Assembly: GCA_963575745.1 (NCBI GenBank)
Contig: CAUYUJ010016136.1
Coordinates: 60,001 to 124,000 of the forward strand
Source of the DNA: Prorocentrum cordatum
Lineage: Eukaryota > Sar > Dinophyceae > Prorocentrales > Prorocentraceae
Reading direction: 5' to 3'
Length of the DNA stretch: 64,000 nt
In this document: positions 19,551-59,215 of the stretch, piece by piece
Numbering within the stretch: position 1 is the stretch's first letter
Layout: every line of letters begins with the position of its first letter
Program-made: the position numbers and the translations under genes
Notes under the pieces: generated by a model
What the model was told of the DNA's origin: nothing
Seen by the model: only the letters and a program-made list of their open reading frames with translations
The model's database searches: none

Positions 19551-22500
19551 TCAATTGGACTTCTTCTCTTGGCATGGCCGTGCCCCCAAGGAGGCGAGGG
19601 CAATTCTTGCAAGGGCTGGCACATCTGTAAGCTTGAAACACTTCGCTGCATCTCCGTACACAATAAGCAATCTAACCATTTCCTTGCACATCTCCGCGAT
19701 TGCGCTAGCTACTGAAAGCTTCCCGCTGTCGCTGCCCAGGCGGTACACCTGCAGGACAATGTAGACAAGAATGCTGCAGTAGCCTAGGCACATCAGCTTG
19801 CTTAGATCGACGCACGTCTGCAGCCACCAATCGCAAACAATGTCGCTAGCACGGTCGACCATAAAGAAACATACGCCGAGCAACGCAACACCTGCAAAAG
19901 CGACAAGCCCCTGTCCGAGTAATCGTTCATTCTCAGCGCGGAGGGTCGTTTGCAAATCTTCCAAGCTATCCTCAATGCTCTTCCAAATGTCCCGTCTCAC
20001 GACGTCACCTCCAAAGATGAGCATCTGATCGAAATCGGCCTTCACCGTTTCCTTCGCTGCGCTGTTCACAGCGTCGAAGGCACCGTCGTTCAAGCCATGC
20101 TTGCTCTTCGATAACTCACCCCTGACAAATGTCGTATATGCCGTCATTGCGTGGTCCTTGGCGATTAGCTCTGTACTGCAGGCCATCGCCTGAATGAACG
20201 ACATGGCCTGTGGCGCCATGTCCTGGAACGCGGCGACAAATTTCTGCAGGATGAGCGGGAAAGTCAGCGTGCTCAACTCCTGGCCCAAGATCACCTTGGC
20301 ATCCGGAGCGCTGGAGAACACCTGCCTGACGTACGCATCGGCGAAACAAAGGAAATCCTGGTCGATTGCAGCGATGTCCGCCAACGCGCTTGCAGCGGAA
20401 AGTGTGACTCGAGTCGCTTGCTTAACTCATTGGAGGCGGGGGGGTGAGATCGCAGTGAAACGGAGAGCCCCCCACCAGGCAATCGGTTTCGGTTTCATGT
20501 CGTGCGTGCGGGCGAGGCGAAAGCTGCGTGGGCGGGCGAAAGGAATGATCCCGTCCTGGCTAGGGCGATACTGGGCTCACTGTGTCTCCTCCCCCCAAGT
20601 GGCCAGCGGTGGCCGAAGGGTGTGCCCCGCCGGTGACCCGTGGTGCTCAGAGGTGTCCCGCGGCGCGGTGTCCCAGGGTGTCCCGTGGTGTCCCGTGGGG
20701 GTCGATGGGGACATCGATAGTGGGAACGATTGTGATTTCGATTGAATAATTAGCGGACTGCACGGAGTCCGTCGCGCAGTGCGCAAACGGTACCGCAAAG
20801 ACAGGAAGGGCCACTTCGGGCCCCCCCAAAAAGCACTCGGCAACGCCGACCCCAATACGCCTACCCAGACGGGCTCACGGCGGGGACGGCGCACAAACGC
20901 GAAGGACATGTCACGCGAAGCGTTGGCTTCACACAACACGTCGGACAAACAAAGACAAAATGAAAGGAACCGCCCGAGCGAGAGCGCTGTATATGGTAAT
21001 ATGAAGGTGTTGCCTAAGGCGACACAGGTGAGAGCCAAATGTGCGTGAAGTAGCTTGTACGCATTGATCGATAGTGAGATCGATTGTGGGGTCGATCGTG
21101 AGATCGATTATCAGATCGACTATGAGGTTGATTGTAAGATATATATATATATATGTCTATAGCATGAAACCGACAAATGGAGGGAGATCGATAGTGAGAT
21201 CGATAGGTTCATGGCGAGTGAAATCGATCGTGTAGTCGATCGGTAAACTGAATGCGAGATCGATAGTGACTGAGATCGGTATACATGTATGATTACATAC
21301 ATACTTATATGTATACATATATATAATATCAATGCGAGATAGTTTGTGAGATCGATCGTGGGAACGAACATGACATCGACTGTGAGGTCGATAGATGGAG
21401 GGAGATCGAGAACTGGATCGACGGTGGTGTTCCGTGGTGTTCCGTGGTGTCTCGTTGCCTGGTATGTCCTTACTATGTTGTCCTACACGGAAGAGCGCCC
21501 GGGCAAATGGATGCCACCTGGTTCTGCTGGTTGCCCAGATGCTTTTTGATGTCCGGTCGGAACTCATGGGAGCCTCACATACCATCTTGTCGGCTCTTGC
21601 GAATCGACGCTAGTCGACGCTAAGTCGACGCTAATCGACGCTAACTCGACGCTACCCGACGCTAAATCGACGCTAAGAAGACGATGTATCGGCGCTATCT
21701 CATCGACTCCCAGACGCTAATCGACGCTGAAGGCATAATTGCGAGGGTACGCAAGGCTCTCATGATTTGCCACCCAATTGATGCGTGTCCCGAAAGATAG
21801 ATCCATAGCCAAACGGATTCCTCCCCCCCACACACACACAACAACCTCATCACCCGAAGGGTGATTGTGTAGCTGTGCTCTTAAGGGGCCCTGGAAACGA
21901 CAGGGCCGTTTTTTTACCGGTTCCGTTTTGCCGTTTTTTTACCGGTTCTGACGCCGTTTTCTTACCGGTTCCGTCGCCGCTGTTTTACCGGTTCCGGCTC
22001 CGGTTCCAATCCTGGAGCCGTTTTTTGGCCGTTTCTGGTCGCCGTTTTTGTTGCCGTTTCCATGTTCAAGGGACATTTTTTCGGCAACGGTGAAAAAACG
22101 GCCCTGCCGTTTCCGGGGCCCACAAAGGCTGTGCTTGAGGCTGAATCCTTGTGTTTGAAGGCGCACTCCGACGCGCAGTCATGGTGCTGCTGCGGGGACT
22201 GCCCCAGGGAACGCAGGGGCTTCCCTGGCCACGGCGAGCCCCAGCCACGCACGGGCTCCTCGACCTAGATCCCAGGAGCTGGTCGGAACCTACCAGTCGA
22301 GACGGATAGGCAGGTCGGCCCTGCCAATCGCGTGTCCTCTCGCGTGTCCTCTAATCGGCCCCGACTGTGTGACGAGGCCCTCCTGAGCCCAAAGTGGCTT
22401 TGATTTCAGCGTCTTGACTGGATGCCTATAACATAATGAACAACGTTTGGACCGTCGAGTGCGCCTCGTGGCGCCTGGGCCGCCGTGGTATCCAAGGACT

Positions 22501-25500
22501 CCCACGAGAGGGACCTGCCTTGGCAGCATCAGGACTGCCCAAGACCGCTCCAAGATGGGCCTCAAACGGCCCACGTCACTGGCCCGGGACGGAGAACGGC
22601 TTCACCGTCGCCTGGAAACAGCGGACTCTCAGAGACAGCTCAGCAACGCCCCAGGCTCGCAGAACTGGCCAAAACGGCCCCGAGGCCACCAGCAAGGGTC
22701 CGCGGTATCCCTTTTTGCTGTTTCCTTGGGGCCGGCCGACGGGCTCAAGATGGCCTCCGCTCAGCCTCCAGCTCGCCTCCGGACGCCCCGGACGGCATCC
22801 TGGCGGTCCAGGAGCCTCGCCCCCCGCGGCCAGAGTCCCAGCAAGGGACTCGAGAGCGGCCCAGCATGGCTCAAGAATGGACCAACAGCGGCCGCAGGGC
22901 CCCGTCAAGGCGACCCACAGAGGATGCAAGACGACTCAAGAACCAATCCAACAATCCTTCGACGCGCAGGACGGCCCCAAATGGGAAGCGGCCGGGGGGT
23001 CTGGAATGGATGTGCTGTTTTTCTCGCGACGCGGTCGTTACCGGCCCTGGTCCTCCCCCCTGCTCCTTGGTAACGTTAAGATTCGTGCTGGCGCCGTCTG
23101 CGAATGCCTAGGAATAGCCAAGAAAGCTCGGATAGCAGAGCTCGGATAGCAGATGCCTTTGAGAAGCGCCCAAGATGGCCTCCAGATGGCCCAAGAGGCC
23201 CCCAAGACGCCCCAAGAGGCCTCCAAGAGGGCCCCAAGAGGCAAATATCAGTGATAGTCCTTAGGTGCTTTGAGAATTTGGGGGCTCTCGCCTTTTCGTC
23301 TTTCCGACGCACCAAGACGGCCTAAGACGCCACCAATATCACCCCAAAACAATCGAAAGCCTCCAAGAGAGCCCCAAGACGGCCTCAGAACACCGCAAGA
23401 CGGCCCAAGAGGCGCCCCAGACGGCCCAAGAGGGCCCCAACACGGCCCCCAAAGAGGCCCAAGAGAGGGAACACGAGCCGAACATCCGAGCCTTCCGCCA
23501 TAAGAGGCCCCCAGGAGGCACCAAGAGGTGCCCAAGAGGCACCCACGAGGCCCCCCAAAGGCCCCAAAAGGCCTCCAAAAGGCCACAAGAGGATCCAATA
23601 TGGCCCCCACACAGCTGTCTCCAAGTGGCCCCCGAGAGGCCTCCCACGAGATCCCAACGAGCATCCAAAAGGATTCAGACCCACAACCCAGGCACGGTGG
23701 CGGGACTTGCCGTATGCAGCTGAACACGCAGGGCAGTTTTCAAGTTCCCAACGAGGAACACGATGACGACGACGAGGACGACGACGGAGGCAAGGATAAT
23801 GAGGAGCGATGGAGGAGCGAGGAGGAAGAGGAGGATGCGGCGGAGGAATGCGGCGGACCAGGGGGTGAAGGAGAAGGGAAGCGCTCTGCCGGAGCACCAG
23901 GGAGGCGCACCCCTATTGTATAGGTGTGCGCGCTCAGTCTTAGCATCTCTATAAGTATCTGTCATCCAGACTGTCTGTGCTTATTGCTAAGATTCGCAAA
24001 CGGCGCCGGCGCGGAACGCGACGTTGCGGGCCCCCCTCCAACCTGGAAGCGCCCGGTTTCGCCTGGGAGTAAGACACGCTCTCCATCATGGATCAAGCAA
24101 TATCCGTTTGAAACCTGTCCCCGGACTCCTCCTGGGGTCAAGCTGGTGCAGTGTTTCACCCCTGTTTTACAATCCTGAGGCCCTAAAACGGCCTCCGGAG
24201 GTCGAAAAAGGCAACAACAAACAAATCCCGAACCCAGAACCTCGAACCTACCCGCCCTTCTTGCTTGCCAGAACCGGTGCTGAGCCATCTCAGACCTCCA
24301 GGCGGCCCCAAGCCGCAAAATCCCCAAAGCCCCTGAAAGCCATCGGAAAGCCCTGGTCGCGCCACGCTGTGCAACGGAAGTGCACAGCAGCCTCGGGAAA
24401 AACAAGTGGCGGATGTGCGCGCGGCAACGCCACTGGATCGCCAGACCAAGTCTCCCTCTCGATCGCGAAGCCGGGATGTGGCAAACAGAAGCAGTCTATA
24501 CTCTGGAACATCCCGTTCAGCACCTCGGCGGTGCTGTTTTCCCTCACCCTGGCAGGATCGATGAAGCTGCGAATGTGCTGCTGCATCTGCTGTCTGCACT
24601 GATCGAAGCTCCATTCTGGCCGGAAATGCCTCCAGTCGCGCACTAAGAAATCGAGGGACTGGAACGGACGATCCAAATCTTCCTGAGAGAGCGTGCAACC
24701 CATCTCCGCTTGCTCAGTGCCAGCCGACCTGGAAAGCGCAGATCGGGCAAAACTAGCGAAGAAAGCGAGATTCTCGATCTTGTCCTCCTGCACCTGCATG
24801 TTTACGTTGTAGATCAACTTGGATGATAGCACAGCCGTGAGGCCAAACACCGTTGCCGACCACGGGAAGCAAAAGGGGTGCACCAACCTGCCCCATGCCT
24901 CTGGCGGGGACGAGGGAGGGAGGGAGGCTGGAGTAGGGACGGCGGGTACGGGTGCACGCGTTTTGCTCTCCAAATTGCTCCTTCGTCATGCTGCCGTCCC
25001 AAGCGCCCTGAGTATCCATGAGGATGACCGCAACACTCTCCGCGACAGGGCCCCGCTGCACGACGCGCACGAAGGGCTCCGACCACACCCAGATGCCCTC
25101 GTTTGGTTGACCCACAGGGGGGTTCAGCTGAAAGGGGGTGGTGCTATAGATGTGGGGCAATTGTATTGCAAATGTATTGCGCCAACTGAGGTATTGCACG
25201 CGAAAGTCCAACAATACATGTGCGCACCAGTCTGTATCGCACGTCCCACAAACCTAATGCCCCAAACAAATCAATTGCTCCAAACCTAATTTTTATCACC
25301 TCCTTTTCCGCTGGACCCCTTCTTTCGGCTACACGTAAGAGTGACCCTGGGCAAGAGCGGCCTTCGGTGAGCGGCTTAACGGGGGACGCGGGGTGGCCAA
25401 ATCCGGGCGCGCAAACTGCTGTTGCCTTTTCGCGCTCAGCGATGGGGGACCTCGTTGGGCCCGCACTGAAGGTCACTCCGGTGAAGGGTGACTCTGTTAC

Positions 25501-26527
25501 GTCTATAAAACGACACAAAGATCGGGACAAAATCGGATCGGGATCACTCGAAATCGCTGAGAATCGGCGGGTTTGGAGAGCGTATTGGGCGCCGCGGCCG
25601 CTCCAGAGCGTTCTGGAACGCTCTGAGAGCGCTCCGGAACGCTCTGCAGCGATTTATCCCGATCCTAGCCCTGTTTTAGTCTAGCCGAGTTTTTGGTCAA
25701 CCAGACCTCGGTGACCCCGTCCATGCCGCCCTTGGACCTGAAGCCCCCCGCGCTGCCCCCGGCGCCCTCGAGCAGGCCACCGCCGCTGCTCATCCACGGG
25801 GGCGGGGCGAGACCAGCGCCCGCCCCACGCGGGGGCGGGCCAGCCGAGCCGCGTGCTGCGGAGGGGAGGAAGACGAGGACCATGACTCAGACTGAGCGCG
25901 GGATTGCCGGCGTCGGTCTCGGTAATGTCAGGGGGGCGTAAGACCCGGGTACAGGGGACTGGGAAATCTCCGACGAGGTCGTCAAAAAATGACGAGGCCG
26001 AGCCTGCATTTTGACGAGGCCTCCCGCTGCAAACATCCCACGAAACTCCTCCTCGTCAAAGTCCGAGGCGCGGTCGTCAAAAAACGATGGCGAACCCGAG
26101 TCCTGGCAAACCCGGGTCTTACGCTCCCCCGGTAATGGTCCGTCCTGGCCATCGTCAATCCGTGGATCGCCGTTCCGAATCAGCGACGGCCGGCATTGGC
26201 CATGACCAGGATCGGCGTCGACAAGATCCCGCGACGTCTCGGTCATGGTCATCGTGCTCCTTCCCTCGATTCTGGGCCGCACCTCTTCTCGTGGCGGAGG
26301 AAGCGGAGAAACAGGTCCAGCAGGAACGACTTCCCCGTCCGGAAGGCCCCCATGACAGACACGACCGACACCCTCATCGGGCCGAGCGCCCGCAGACTCT
26401 GCTCCAGACGGCCAAGCGCTTCCTCGTCCACAACGGCTTTCCCCTCCGCCATGTCGAGCCGCACTATCTGCAGGGCCTGGCCCGTCAGCACCGACCCCGC
26501 GCTCGGACTGCCGTCGACTTCCAGCAT
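19551..26527 (-). CDS. Atlastin/GBP-like dynamin-superfamily GTPase
   Basis: Five exons: 26527-26281, 25855-25707, 25097-24975, 24859-24425 and 20381-19551, joined in phase to ~594 residues (atlastins are ~550). Visible in order: P-loop GAFRTGKS (60-67), the switch region leading to GIWVWSEPF, DTQG (160-163), the family's RD motif in LDFLVRDW (247-248), LPHPG at the end of the G domain, a helical middle domain, then two hydrophobic segments (about 475-493 and 511-531) and a short tail. Family knowledge: such GTPases dimerise and fuse ER tubules. The ATG at 26527 is the first in frame; an upstream exon is possible because the frame runs open to about 26630. Intron borders: 1 fits GC-AG, 2 GT-AG, 3 and 4 non-canonical. 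There are no stops inside the exons. Confidence 0.85.
21063..21420. repeat. GATCGATnGTGA minisatellite with AT-rich insert
   Basis: Units such as 'gagatcgatagtgagatcga' vary around a 12-13 base period, interrupted by TATATA and CATACATA runs. Confidence 0.8.
21603..21732. repeat. 12-bp tandem repeat CGACGCTAANT
   Basis: About nine units of TCGACGCTAA(G/A/C) with point changes, decaying toward 21730. Confidence 0.85.
21885..22121. mobile_element. Family E inverted-repeat element, copy 1
   Basis: Ends 'ggggccctggaaacgacagg' and 'cctgccgtttccggggccc' are complementary and followed inward by GCCGTTTTTTTACCG / CGGTGAAAAAACGGC. The interior repeats 'taccggttccg'. Copy 2 at 54618-54847. Confidence 0.8.
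22440..23690. repeat. Degenerate CCCAAGAGGCC-type repeat region
   Basis: Loose, diverged copies of 'gccccaagaggcccc'. All plus-strand frames stay open for 200+ codons because the motif lacks stop triplets. Related tracts occur at 7840-7980, 28590-29160, 48230-48600 and 61860-63190. Not coding by my reading. Confidence 0.6.
24860..24974 (-). other. 115-bp intron 3 of the atlastin-like gene, ends complementary, no GT-AG
   Basis: Homology places the exon ends after MTKEQ and before SATVFGLT. Near the intron ends lie ggtgcacgcgttttgc (24951-24966) and gcaaaaggggtgcacc (24869-24884), complementary at 14 of 16 positions. Neither GT nor AG occurs at the borders required by the protein alignment. 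Confidence 0.6.
25320..25680. repeat. Repeat shared with 56790-57070
   Basis: Blocks around 'gtgaccctgggcaagag', 'gggcgccgcggccgctccag' and 'cgttctggaacg' recur in order at 56.8-57.07 kb. This copy lies in intron 2 of the atlastin-like gene. Confidence 0.5.
25928..26129. mobile_element. Family A inverted-repeat element, copy 2 (inside atlastin intron 1)
   Basis: 202 bp, ends 'tcaggggggcgtaagacccg' and 'cgggtcttacgctcccc', flanked by a perfect 8-bp duplication CGGTAATG (25920-25927 and 26130-26137). Near-identical to 15926-16128. It lies in the 425-bp intron between exons 1 and 2. Confidence 0.9.
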
Positions 26528-32894: not shown

Positions 32895-33805
32895 CTAGTG
32901 GGCCTCCATCGAGAAATCGGAGCCCGAATCGGAATCCCAAATCGAGTCGGATCGGAATCGGAATACATTGTTATCGAATCGAACCGAACTAGAGGAATCG
33001 AAACGCCCCTGGGAGGAAGTCCTTGATGTCGGTGTAGGCGCAGAGTGAGGCAGGGTGGGGATCGGGAGCAGGAGCAGGAGGACCATGCCGCATGGTCGCA
33101 GCACGAAGGGCAGCAACAGCAGGGGATGAGCAGCAGGGAGAAAGAGGAAGGGGAAGAGACCACGGGGACCATGACCAATACTGCACGCGGAAGTGCTGTG
33201 CCGAGCTTGGTCGGCGTCGCTCTTGGTCAACGCCGACTCGTGCTTTTGGCAGGCACGTTCGAGCGACATGCGCGACCGTAGGCGCCAGAGGGGCGGCGCC
33301 CGACTCAGTCGGGCACCTTTGGCAACGCATTCCAGGGCTCAAGTTAAACAGTGTTTTCCGTTTTCGTTTTGTCTTCGTCATCCCTATGTCGTCGTCCCAC
33401 ATTTGCTGCAAAACGAAGGCAAAACAAAAACGGTCCACGAAATTGCCAAAACACCGTTTAGCTCGAGCCCTGGCGCACTCTGCTGCGCTGCCCCCAACGC
33501 AGCGCAGGCCGCCGAGGAGCAGCAGCGCCTGCCCCCGCGCCGGCAGGCCCCCGCGCTGGCAGCCGACTCCTGCACCGTCCTCACGAAGCGCCGACGGCCC
33601 GGCACGGACCACGACCAAGATCGGCACATGGGCAGGGTTAGGGGGCCACATGCGAACCCTACCCCTACCCCCCCCCCGATTTCAAAGGGGGAGGGTGGGG
33701 CTCCCACGATCTCCCAGTGAACCCCACCCTCCCCCTCAGAGATCGTGGGGGGCAGGGGTAGGGTTCGCATGTGGCCCCCTAAGGGTCCCGAGACGTCGTG
33801 GCCAT
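32895..33805 (-). CDS. Three-exon gene whose introns are inverted-repeat elements
   Basis: Exon 1 (33805-33782) encodes MATTSRDP from an ATG in GCCATGG. Exon 2 (33633-33474) encodes ~53 residues (AHVPILVVVRAGPSALRE at the start). Exon 3 (33331-32895) starts 62 bases before RMSLERACQKHESALTKSD and ends in a stop at 32895. Excising the two elements joins the frames in phase to ~206 residues. Without excision, exon 1 meets TAG at once. The last third has a Leu/Pro-rich hydrophobic stretch followed by a Ser/Asp-rich tail, and could hold another intron. No family recognised. Confidence 0.55.
33332..33473 (-). mobile_element. 142-bp inverted-repeat element acting as intron 2
   Basis: Ends 'ccagggctcaagttaaac' and 'gtttagctcgagccctgg' are complementary, continuing inward with GTGTTTTCCG and an ACGG...CAAAACACC counterpart. 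No GT-AG at the ends. Its length (not a multiple of three) is what brings the downstream RMSLERAC frame into phase. Confidence 0.6.
33639..33781 (-). mobile_element. 143-bp palindromic element acting as intron 1
   Basis: A near-perfect hairpin: ~60-base arms starting 'tagggggccacatgcgaacc' and ending in its complement, around a loop of ~20 bases. Flanked by the direct repeat AGGGT (33634-33638 and 33782-33786). Confidence 0.8.
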
Positions 33806-54617: not shown

Positions 54618-54847
54618 GGGCCCTGGAAACGACAAAGCCGTTCTTATACCGGTTCCGTTTTGCCGTTTTTGCCGGTTCCGGAACCGTTTTTTAACTGGTT
54701 CTGTCGCCGTTGTTTTACCAGTTCCGTCTCGGGTTCCAATCCTCCAGCCGTTTATGTTTCCGTCACTGGTCGTCGATTTCTGTTTGCCACTTTTATTTTC
54801 AAGACTTCGTAATCGGTAAAAAAACGGCCCTGTCGTTTCTGGGGCCC
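54618..54847. mobile_element. Family E element, copy 2
   Basis: Same ends as 21885-22121 ('gggccctggaaacgacaaag' and 'ccctgtcgtttctggggccc') and the same repeated 'accggttccg' interior. Confidence 0.8.
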
Positions 54848-55620: not shown

Positions 55621-55849
55621 CTGGGGAGATCTCATGGCCCCCGCCATGACACCCCTCCCCCTGGTCATCACCCCCCTCGTTACCGACCCCGAGTTTGGGG
55701 GGCCCTGGAGGCCCGGGTTGTCGGAGACATCCTCGGAGAACGGCCCCAGGCCCCCAACACCGTGCGCGCACCCCGGATGCCAGACGACGCACCGCACGGT
55801 GTTGTCACCGCACCGCATGGGGCCTCCGAGAAGACGGAGAAGACCTCCG

Positions 55850-56275
55850 AGTAGGAGGAGGACGACGACGACGAGGAGGAAGAGGAGGAGGGGGGGAGGA
55901 AGGAGGGAGAGGAGGAGGAGGACAAGAAGGAGGAGAAGATGAAACTCCTGGATGCCGATGGAGCCAGAAGGCTTCATGACGACCCGAAGGCCTCAGGAAG
56001 CCTTTCGAGGGCCCAGGACGCTCCAAGTTGCCGCAAGATGGCATTCTCTCCTGGTCGATCCGACGAGGGGGAGAAGGCCAGTCGCGCAACGATTCGCCCC
56101 CGGCGCCGCGTGGGAATGTTTGCCAATGGCTGGGTCCCAGACGGCGCCTGCACGAATCGTGAGGTGACCAGGTGTGTGGGAGGGGAGAGGTTTTCATCCG
56201 CGGGTTGCAAATCGACCCCAGACGGCCGACAATGGCCTCCAGTGCAGAACACAGCAGACCCACGGACCCCCGCCG
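55850..56275 (+). repeat. Inverted duplication, arm 1
   Basis: A GGA array, then ~350 bases starting 'gatgaaactcctggatgccg', matched in reverse orientation at 58755-59215. The frame starting MKLLDADGARRLHDD is open in both arms, but frame-shifting indels occur further on. No known domain. Confidence 0.75.
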
Positions 56276-58754: not shown

Positions 58755-59215
58755 ATGGAACAATCACGGCGGGAGATTGGGTTACTATGTTCTGCCTGGG
58801 GGGGCCCTCGCCGGCCTTCTGGGGTCGATTTGCAACCCGTAGGCAAGAACCTCTCCCCCCTCACACCCCTGGTCACCTCACGATTCGCGCCGGCGCCGTC
58901 TGGGACCCAGCCATTGACAAGCATTCCCACGCGGCGCCGGGGGCGAATCGTTACGCGACTGGCCTTCTCCCCCTCTCCGTCGGATCGACCAGGAAAGAAT
59001 GCCATCTTGCGGCAACTTGGAGCGTCCTGGGCCTTCGAAAGGCTTCCTGAGGCCTTCGGGTCGTCATGAAGCCTTCTGGCTCCATCGGCATCCGGGAGTT
59101 TCATCTTCTCCTCCTTCTTATCCTCCTCCTCCTCCTCCTCCTCCTCCTCCTCCTCTCCCTCCTTCCTCCCCCCCTCCTCCTCCTCCTCGTCGTCGTCCTC
59201 CTCCTACTCGAGCGC
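58755..59215 (-). repeat. Inverted duplication, arm 2
   Basis: Reverse complement of 55850-56275, including the (CTC)n array (GGA on the other arm) and the sequence after it. The two arms are ~2.5 kb apart. Confidence 0.75.

Follow-up and report, generated by a model that had tools for sequence, protein, structure and literature searches.

Two unrelated MITEs and a probably coincidental reading frame in repeat-rich DNA of the dinoflagellate Prorocentrum cordatum

The window analysed here is a stretch of 64,000 nucleotides from Prorocentrum cordatum with a G+C content of about 60%; the published assembly of the species is given as 4.15 Gb with 59.7% G+C (PMC10666404, cited here from excerpts). 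An atlastin/GBP-like GTPase gene lies on the minus strand, and its two pieces were the only matches to Pfam among 20 open reading frames of the window. Further along are two short fold-back elements, called element 1 and element 2 below, which an earlier note had read as transposon-derived introns of a minus-strand gene (Table 1). By our own criteria the window holds 21 fold-backs against 0, 2, 0 and 0 in four shuffled versions, so the elements are not a product of chance. Two other fold-backs, at 21886-22121 and 54618-54847, share the ends GGGCCCTGGAAACGACA and probably belong to one MITE family, and a long inverted repeat at 55848-56240 and 58800-59195 has arms of 229 and 176 nt, 86-89% identical and about 2.6-2.9 kb apart. 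A tRNA scan found none, and no match to Rfam reached the gathering threshold; a lower threshold gave 23 matches near the locus, almost all of them to microRNA families, and as none reached the gathering score of its family we took them as chance matches to hairpins.

Table 1. Positions of the features discussed in the text, in window coordinates
Feature	Position	Strand	Remarks
Atlastin/GBP-like GTPase gene, five exons	19554..26527	-	Used as a positive control, both for the coding score and for introns
Atlastin intron 4, 4061 nt	20379..24439	-	GT/GC/GA-AG not possible; complementarity of the ends unremarkable
Atlastin intron 3, 115 nt	24860..24974	-	Fold-back; none of the cuts that the apparently transcript-derived protein permits has GT/GC/GA-AG
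Atlastin intron 2, 609 nt	25098..25706	-	Has a short terminal inverted repeat and a duplication, CGAGG; can be read as GT-AG if the AG is taken from the duplication
Atlastin intron 1, about 416 nt	25857..26272	-	Strong inverted repeat near the ends; borders inferred from another species' protein
Claimed spliced frame, 206 codons after both excisions	32895..33805	-	Judged coincidental
Dispersed repeat	32895..33017	.	At least 39 other places, 82-88% identity; right-hand limit of individual matches varies from 33003 to 33017
Element 2 target duplication, left copy ACGCATTC	33325..33332	.	Decayed; 8-bp rule from relatives
Element 2, hAT-like MITE, 140 bp	33333..33472	.	Terminal inverted repeat CAGGGCTCRAG...
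Element 2 target duplication, right copy GCGCACTC	33473..33480	.	6/8 equal to left copy; 8-bp rule from relatives
Element 1 target duplication, left copy AGGGT	33634..33638	.	
Element 1, palindromic MITE, 143 bp	33639..33781	.	Terminal inverted repeat TAGGGGGCCACATGCG...; relatives with the same ends
Element 1 target duplication, right copy AGGGT	33782..33786	.	

Element 1 is the palindrome that had been described, at the same 143 positions and with an AGGGT direct repeat on either side. Its RNA folds at -136.9 kcal/mol (z -15.2), a value that none of 200 shuffles equalled, and among 40 places scored of 2421 candidates it recurs at 39 others in the same genome with 84-88% identity. The 20 copies that we fetched end in TAGGGGGCCACATGCG or near variants; with that of the window they form palindromes of 139-157 bp (n=21), and 16 of the 21, the window's included, carry a duplication of exactly 5 bp. 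In a larger set the duplication was exact in 27/40 copies, and the borders of 9 of the remaining 13 look misplaced inside the element. Using another copy as query, we found a young subset at 39 or more other places with 96-98% identity; of 35 further copies, our script assigned 15 a duplication of exactly 5 bp, 14 one of another length and 6 none. The two halves of the window's element are 82% alike as against 86-100% in the other 39 copies, and it is therefore an older copy. Short, repeated and devoid of coding capacity, with terminal inverted repeats and a target duplication of constant length (5 bp in most copies), element 1 has the properties of a MITE, and we classify its family as a high-copy palindromic MITE with mostly 5-bp target duplications and a recent burst.

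Element 2 belongs to a different family. Its fold is likewise far more stable than expected (z -10.5, with 0/200 shuffles as good), and among 40 places scored of 2798 candidates 39 others in the same genome are 90-93% identical to it. Twenty relatives define its boundaries as CAGGG..CCCTG; the fold-back that had been placed at 33332-33473 (142 bases) is thus real, with true ends at 33333 and 33472. An exact 8-bp duplication flanks 25/40 copies, the remaining 15 having other lengths, and that of the window's own copy has decayed to 6/8 matching positions. The ends fit the pattern YARNG, which like 8-bp duplications is a feature of hAT-type MITEs, and we class the family as a hAT-like MITE with mostly 8-bp duplications. 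The earlier suggestion that both elements are of transposon origin is borne out, as each has at least 39 relatives, terminal repeats typical of its family and target duplications of a single length in most copies. The exact terminal-repeat patterns of elements 1 and 2 occurred 0 and 0 times in viral contigs.

The reading frame itself can be reconstructed as proposed. On the minus strand an ATG at 33805 opens the sequence MATTSRDP and runs into a TAG that consists of the first bases of the palindrome; removal of the palindrome and one AGGGT continues the frame into AHVPILVVVRAG, and excision of 142 bases at 33332-33473 leads into the frame of RMSLERACQKHES, giving 206 codons in total (204 codons in the same frame if element 2 is excised by the corrected rule). 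The statement that element 2 interrupts the frame did not hold, since the minus strand from 33681 to 32992 is open for 230 codons straight through it, and the same ATG gives 222 codons when element 1 is taken out and element 2 kept, against the 206 claimed. Frame restoration alone cannot demonstrate splicing, because removing a transposon and one copy of its target always recreates the sequence before insertion. As a control we removed two blocks of the sizes of the elements at random places, counting as a success any ATG-initiated frame of at least 206 codons. This was reached in 326/1500 double excisions on one strand and 537/1500 on either strand, and in 287/1500 (one strand) when the excisions lay outside low-complexity DNA. 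Joined flanks of other copies behave similarly (flank lengths 500 and 300 bases, longest of the six frames; masked bases occur in two copies): all 20 of 20 other element-2 copies are open for at least 105 codons across the junction, as against 212 in the window, and 20 other element-1 copies for 72-199 codons as against 198.

We then compared the claimed exons with those of the atlastin gene. For the claimed exons we obtained -0.098 and -0.146 bits per codon, values that 16% and 20% of random open segments equal or exceed. Atlastin exons 1, 3 and 4 lie in the range +0.165 to +0.254 bits per codon, a level reached by 0 to 0.13% of random segments. The score, whose third-base use was trained on atlastin exons, has low power and misses one in four real exons: atlastin exon 2, at -0.045 bits per codon, is equalled or exceeded by 9.7% of random segments. 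When each atlastin exon was scored by a model trained without it, the true frame ranked first of the six in 5/5 cases; the claimed frame ranked first for neither claimed exon. A screen for coding flanks on both sides gave p 0.47 for element 1 and p 0.22 for element 2, with scores of 1.3 and 2.0 as compared with 9.4-12.5 for the known atlastin introns 2-4, whose exons had trained the model. By the flank screen and the exon scores, neither element appears to lie at this locus between coding exons as an introner would. The dispersed repeat accounts for the stop codon and for roughly the final 36-40 of the 206 codons, and a search of 5.8 billion proteins returned no relative of the spliced product at E<=10 among 1154 candidates scored, which may still be compatible with an orphan gene.

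The atlastin gene also provides introns of known position. In a tree of atlastin-like proteins the window's gene and a P. cordatum one form a single well-supported clade within the dinoflagellates. The protein P0010 is identical to atlastin exons 2 (from an internal Met) to 5 with the introns absent; its source is a set of JGI contigs, the longest of 1928 bases, and we infer that it derives from a transcript. P0010 fixes introns 2, 3 and 4, while intron 1 was placed by a protein of another species (P0011) and was left out of the counts below. That all real introns here would be GT/GC-AG, as intron 2 had suggested, was ruled out, as P0010 leaves introns 3 and 4 no such option: intron 3 can only have the borders AT..TG, TT..GG or TT..GT, and intron 4 only CG..GC, GA..CG, AT..GG, TC..GA or CC..AC. 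Introns 1, 2 and 3 fold with paired ends, at z -8.4, -6.1 and -2.6 against 100, 20 and 200 shuffles respectively; for intron 3, 2 of the 200 were as good. Compared with random segments of the window, end complementarity gave p 0.006 for intron 1 and p 0.28 and 0.46 for introns 2 and 4; the value for intron 3, p 0.10, comes from a null that held failed folds. As a repeat family intron 3 is single copy, and nearly all copies found for intron 2 belong to an element nested in it and not to the intron's own ends. This nested element, at 25501-25682, is of very high copy number, with 6966 candidates at first look and mostly 92-96% identity.

A paralogue of the atlastin gene on another contig (C13533) extends these observations. 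The transcriptome protein P0016 fixes eight introns there, seven of which allow GT, GC or GA with AG, and the eighth, the last, allows only AT..GG, TC..GA, CC..AT or CA..TC. End pairing is not unusual in any of the eight (p 0.07 to 0.89, the last included). The deposited P. cordatum protein P0018 matches the contig in nine pieces, seven at 87-98% and the other two at 63% and 74%, and has two extra residues (QR) at the join of the last intron shown by P0016; it differs from P0016 at two further places. In all, 3/11 introns placed by transcript-derived proteins have no GT/GC/GA-AG option, and from these alignments the genome seems to splice some introns with other borders. RNA editing, assembly errors or, for P0010, an intron-free gene copy may also be sources of such borders. 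According to the excerpts of the genome paper, introner elements are reported in introns of P. cordatum: the introns were screened close to their ends for inverted repeats (8-20 nt) and direct repeats (3-5 nt), and those carrying them were counted; gene prediction was adapted to GC and GA donors (PMC10666404). A prediction adapted in this way may have missed or misplaced other borders, as at the last intron of the paralogue in P0018. A review, likewise cited in part, lists GT, GC and GA with AG for Symbiodiniaceae and other borders mainly for Amoebophrya (PMC11453091); the papers listed by our narrow search of open-access literature showed no report of P. cordatum borders other than GT/GC/GA-AG.

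To see where the two families sit elsewhere, we applied the coding-flank screen to 74 other element-1 copies, of which 72 are distinct (L046 and L047, and L061 and L062, have identical flanks and were counted once each), and to 39 other element-2 copies. The null comprised 3487 random sites and, with low-complexity proteins left out, had its 99% point at 5.3 and its maximum at 10.1. Two of the 72 element-1 copies stand out, L046 with a score of 13.1 and L068 with 8.5, corresponding to p 0 and 0.0006 (0.0027 and 0.0084 with a null that keeps low-complexity sites, maximum 20.4); as these values are uncorrected for the 113 other copies screened, we relied on paralogues and Pfam in judging the two loci. 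No element-2 copy (0/39) has clear coding flanks, the best, at the 99% point of the null (5.3), being of low complexity. At L046 (L046:301-454 and L047:301-454, on contigs C8983 and C5955) a copy flanked by the duplication ACAGC cuts into a PDZ-like frame, which there meets a TAG, as happens at element 1 in the window. All eight non-self loci compared (L095-L102) align over the junction with gaps elsewhere and none at that point, and the join reads QWNS|RNEKAEV where the uninterrupted paralogues L095-L098 have QWNDRNEEARV. Pfam assigned no family to the whole joined protein, and an uninterrupted paralogue gave only weak PDZ matches below the Pfam cut-off. At L068 (L068:303-456; C3437:23745-23898) a copy with a CGAGT duplication lies in an OGFOD2-like frame that is open for 503 codons past the junction. 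The joined protein matches the OGFOD2-like family PF25238 at 1.9e-19 over residues 40-155 with the junction after residue 57; the right part on its own does nearly as well (1.7e-18), which makes Pfam better evidence for the gene than for its join. Exact interruption of conserved coding frames was found in the element-1 family and in none of the 39 element-2 copies screened. At neither L046 nor L068 did reading the sequences by eye reveal GT/GC/GA-AG at cuts within the duplication. Each of the two copies may be a hairpin intron or may have landed recently and disrupted its gene. Coding DNA makes up a few percent of the genome, so two in 72 is about the level expected by chance for random insertion.

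Taken together, we consider it probable (about 0.86) that the locus holds two unrelated MITEs inserted in non-coding, repeat-rich P. cordatum DNA and that the open frame after their excision is a coincidence. Family membership, ends and target duplications identify both elements, and the frame does no better than the controls. Element 1, a nearly perfect palindrome, belongs to a family that duplicates 5 bp on insertion and element 2, hAT-like, to one that duplicates 8 bp; transposases of fuller elements presumably moved both copies, and the open frame would be a product of stop-poor DNA with 60% G+C. The gene that seems to be interrupted is most likely a chance reading frame, and we infer that nothing is transcribed and spliced at this locus. 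The proposal of the earlier note, that both elements are introns of a minus-strand gene, strikes us as improbable. Such a gene would be an orphan, and its hairpins would bring the intron ends together for a join inside the target duplication, a mode known from non-canonical introners in Amoebophrya. In favour of it are the exact 5-bp duplication and the immediate TAG at element 1, the very stable hairpins and the element-1 relatives in coding frames elsewhere; lack of splice signals is compatible with intron status because, judged from transcript-derived proteins, other introns of this genome seem to be spliced with no GT/GC/GA-AG option. Against it, element 2 does not block the frame and needs no removal, flank and exon scores are non-coding, the C-terminus is repeat-derived, homologues are absent at E<=10 among the candidates scored, and a similar frame effect is frequent at random places (about one in five). 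Dinoflagellate genomes contain many gene remnants, and the MITEs might have inserted into a former coding exon and inactivated it with no splicing involved; insertion with target duplication always leaves a restorable frame, but the same absence of protein relatives (1154 candidates, E<=10) and scores that are not coding-like make such a decayed gene very improbable. A last reading makes element 1 an introner of the plus strand, in which the AGGGT duplication supplies GT at one end and AG at the other of a GT-AG intron in some unknown transcript (..AGG|GTTAGG....CCTAAG|GGT..). It agrees with the arrangement that the excerpted source describes where introners draw their splice sites from the duplication (PMC9860276), but is hardly credible given a strongly non-coding plus-strand frame (-94.6 bits over 282 codons), a join that leaves one extra base relative to the empty site and a duplication of a kind that chance can produce.

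Several known systems bear on these elements, each cited here from excerpts of the papers. The hairpin introners of Amoebophrya are bordered by direct repeats of 3-5 nt, and their splice dinucleotides are not fixed (Farhat et al. 2021, PMC7789003). Element 1 resembles them in anatomy, being a fold-back with short direct repeats at its borders, and atlastin intron 3 resembles them as a fold-back without GT-AG; in Amoebophrya, however, splicing was seen by RNA-seq (PMC7789003), whereas the flanks of elements 1 and 2, known from DNA, do not look coding. Introners of algae and dinoflagellates have been described as non-autonomous DNA transposons with terminal inverted repeats and target duplications, from which their splice sites may come (Gozashti et al. 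2022, PMC9860276), as is possible in atlastin intron 2. Those introners recur as introns of genes (PMC9860276), whereas clear coding flanks were found here for only 2/72 element-1 and 0/39 element-2 copies. The nonconventional introns of euglenids and diplonemids similarly have ends joined by a hairpin, no GT-AG and a suggested MITE origin (PMC6221363, PMC12621601); they belong to an unrelated lineage, and nothing points to shared machinery.

For the biology of the organism, the locus is in the first place a caution that frame restoration is poor evidence of splicing, as it occurs at about one in five random sites in this stop-poor DNA. The splicing mechanism that had been claimed, improbable at this locus, may still apply where members of the element-1 family sit in real genes. 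Tentatively, and with the odds against it, the family may be an active introner in a core dinoflagellate: where a copy lands in a coding exon, the RNA hairpin would be cut out with the join inside the 5-bp target duplication and with no GT/GC/GA-AG, making every insertion a neutral intron from the outset; the copies in the PDZ-like gene (L046) and the OGFOD2-like gene (L068) would then be fresh examples and atlastin intron 3 an older intron of the same mode. The case is testable: members of a young hairpin family lie within coding frames, and transcript-derived proteins from the same genome imply some introns without GT/GC/GA-AG. If true, this reading would extend non-canonical splicing of the Amoebophrya type to Prorocentrum.
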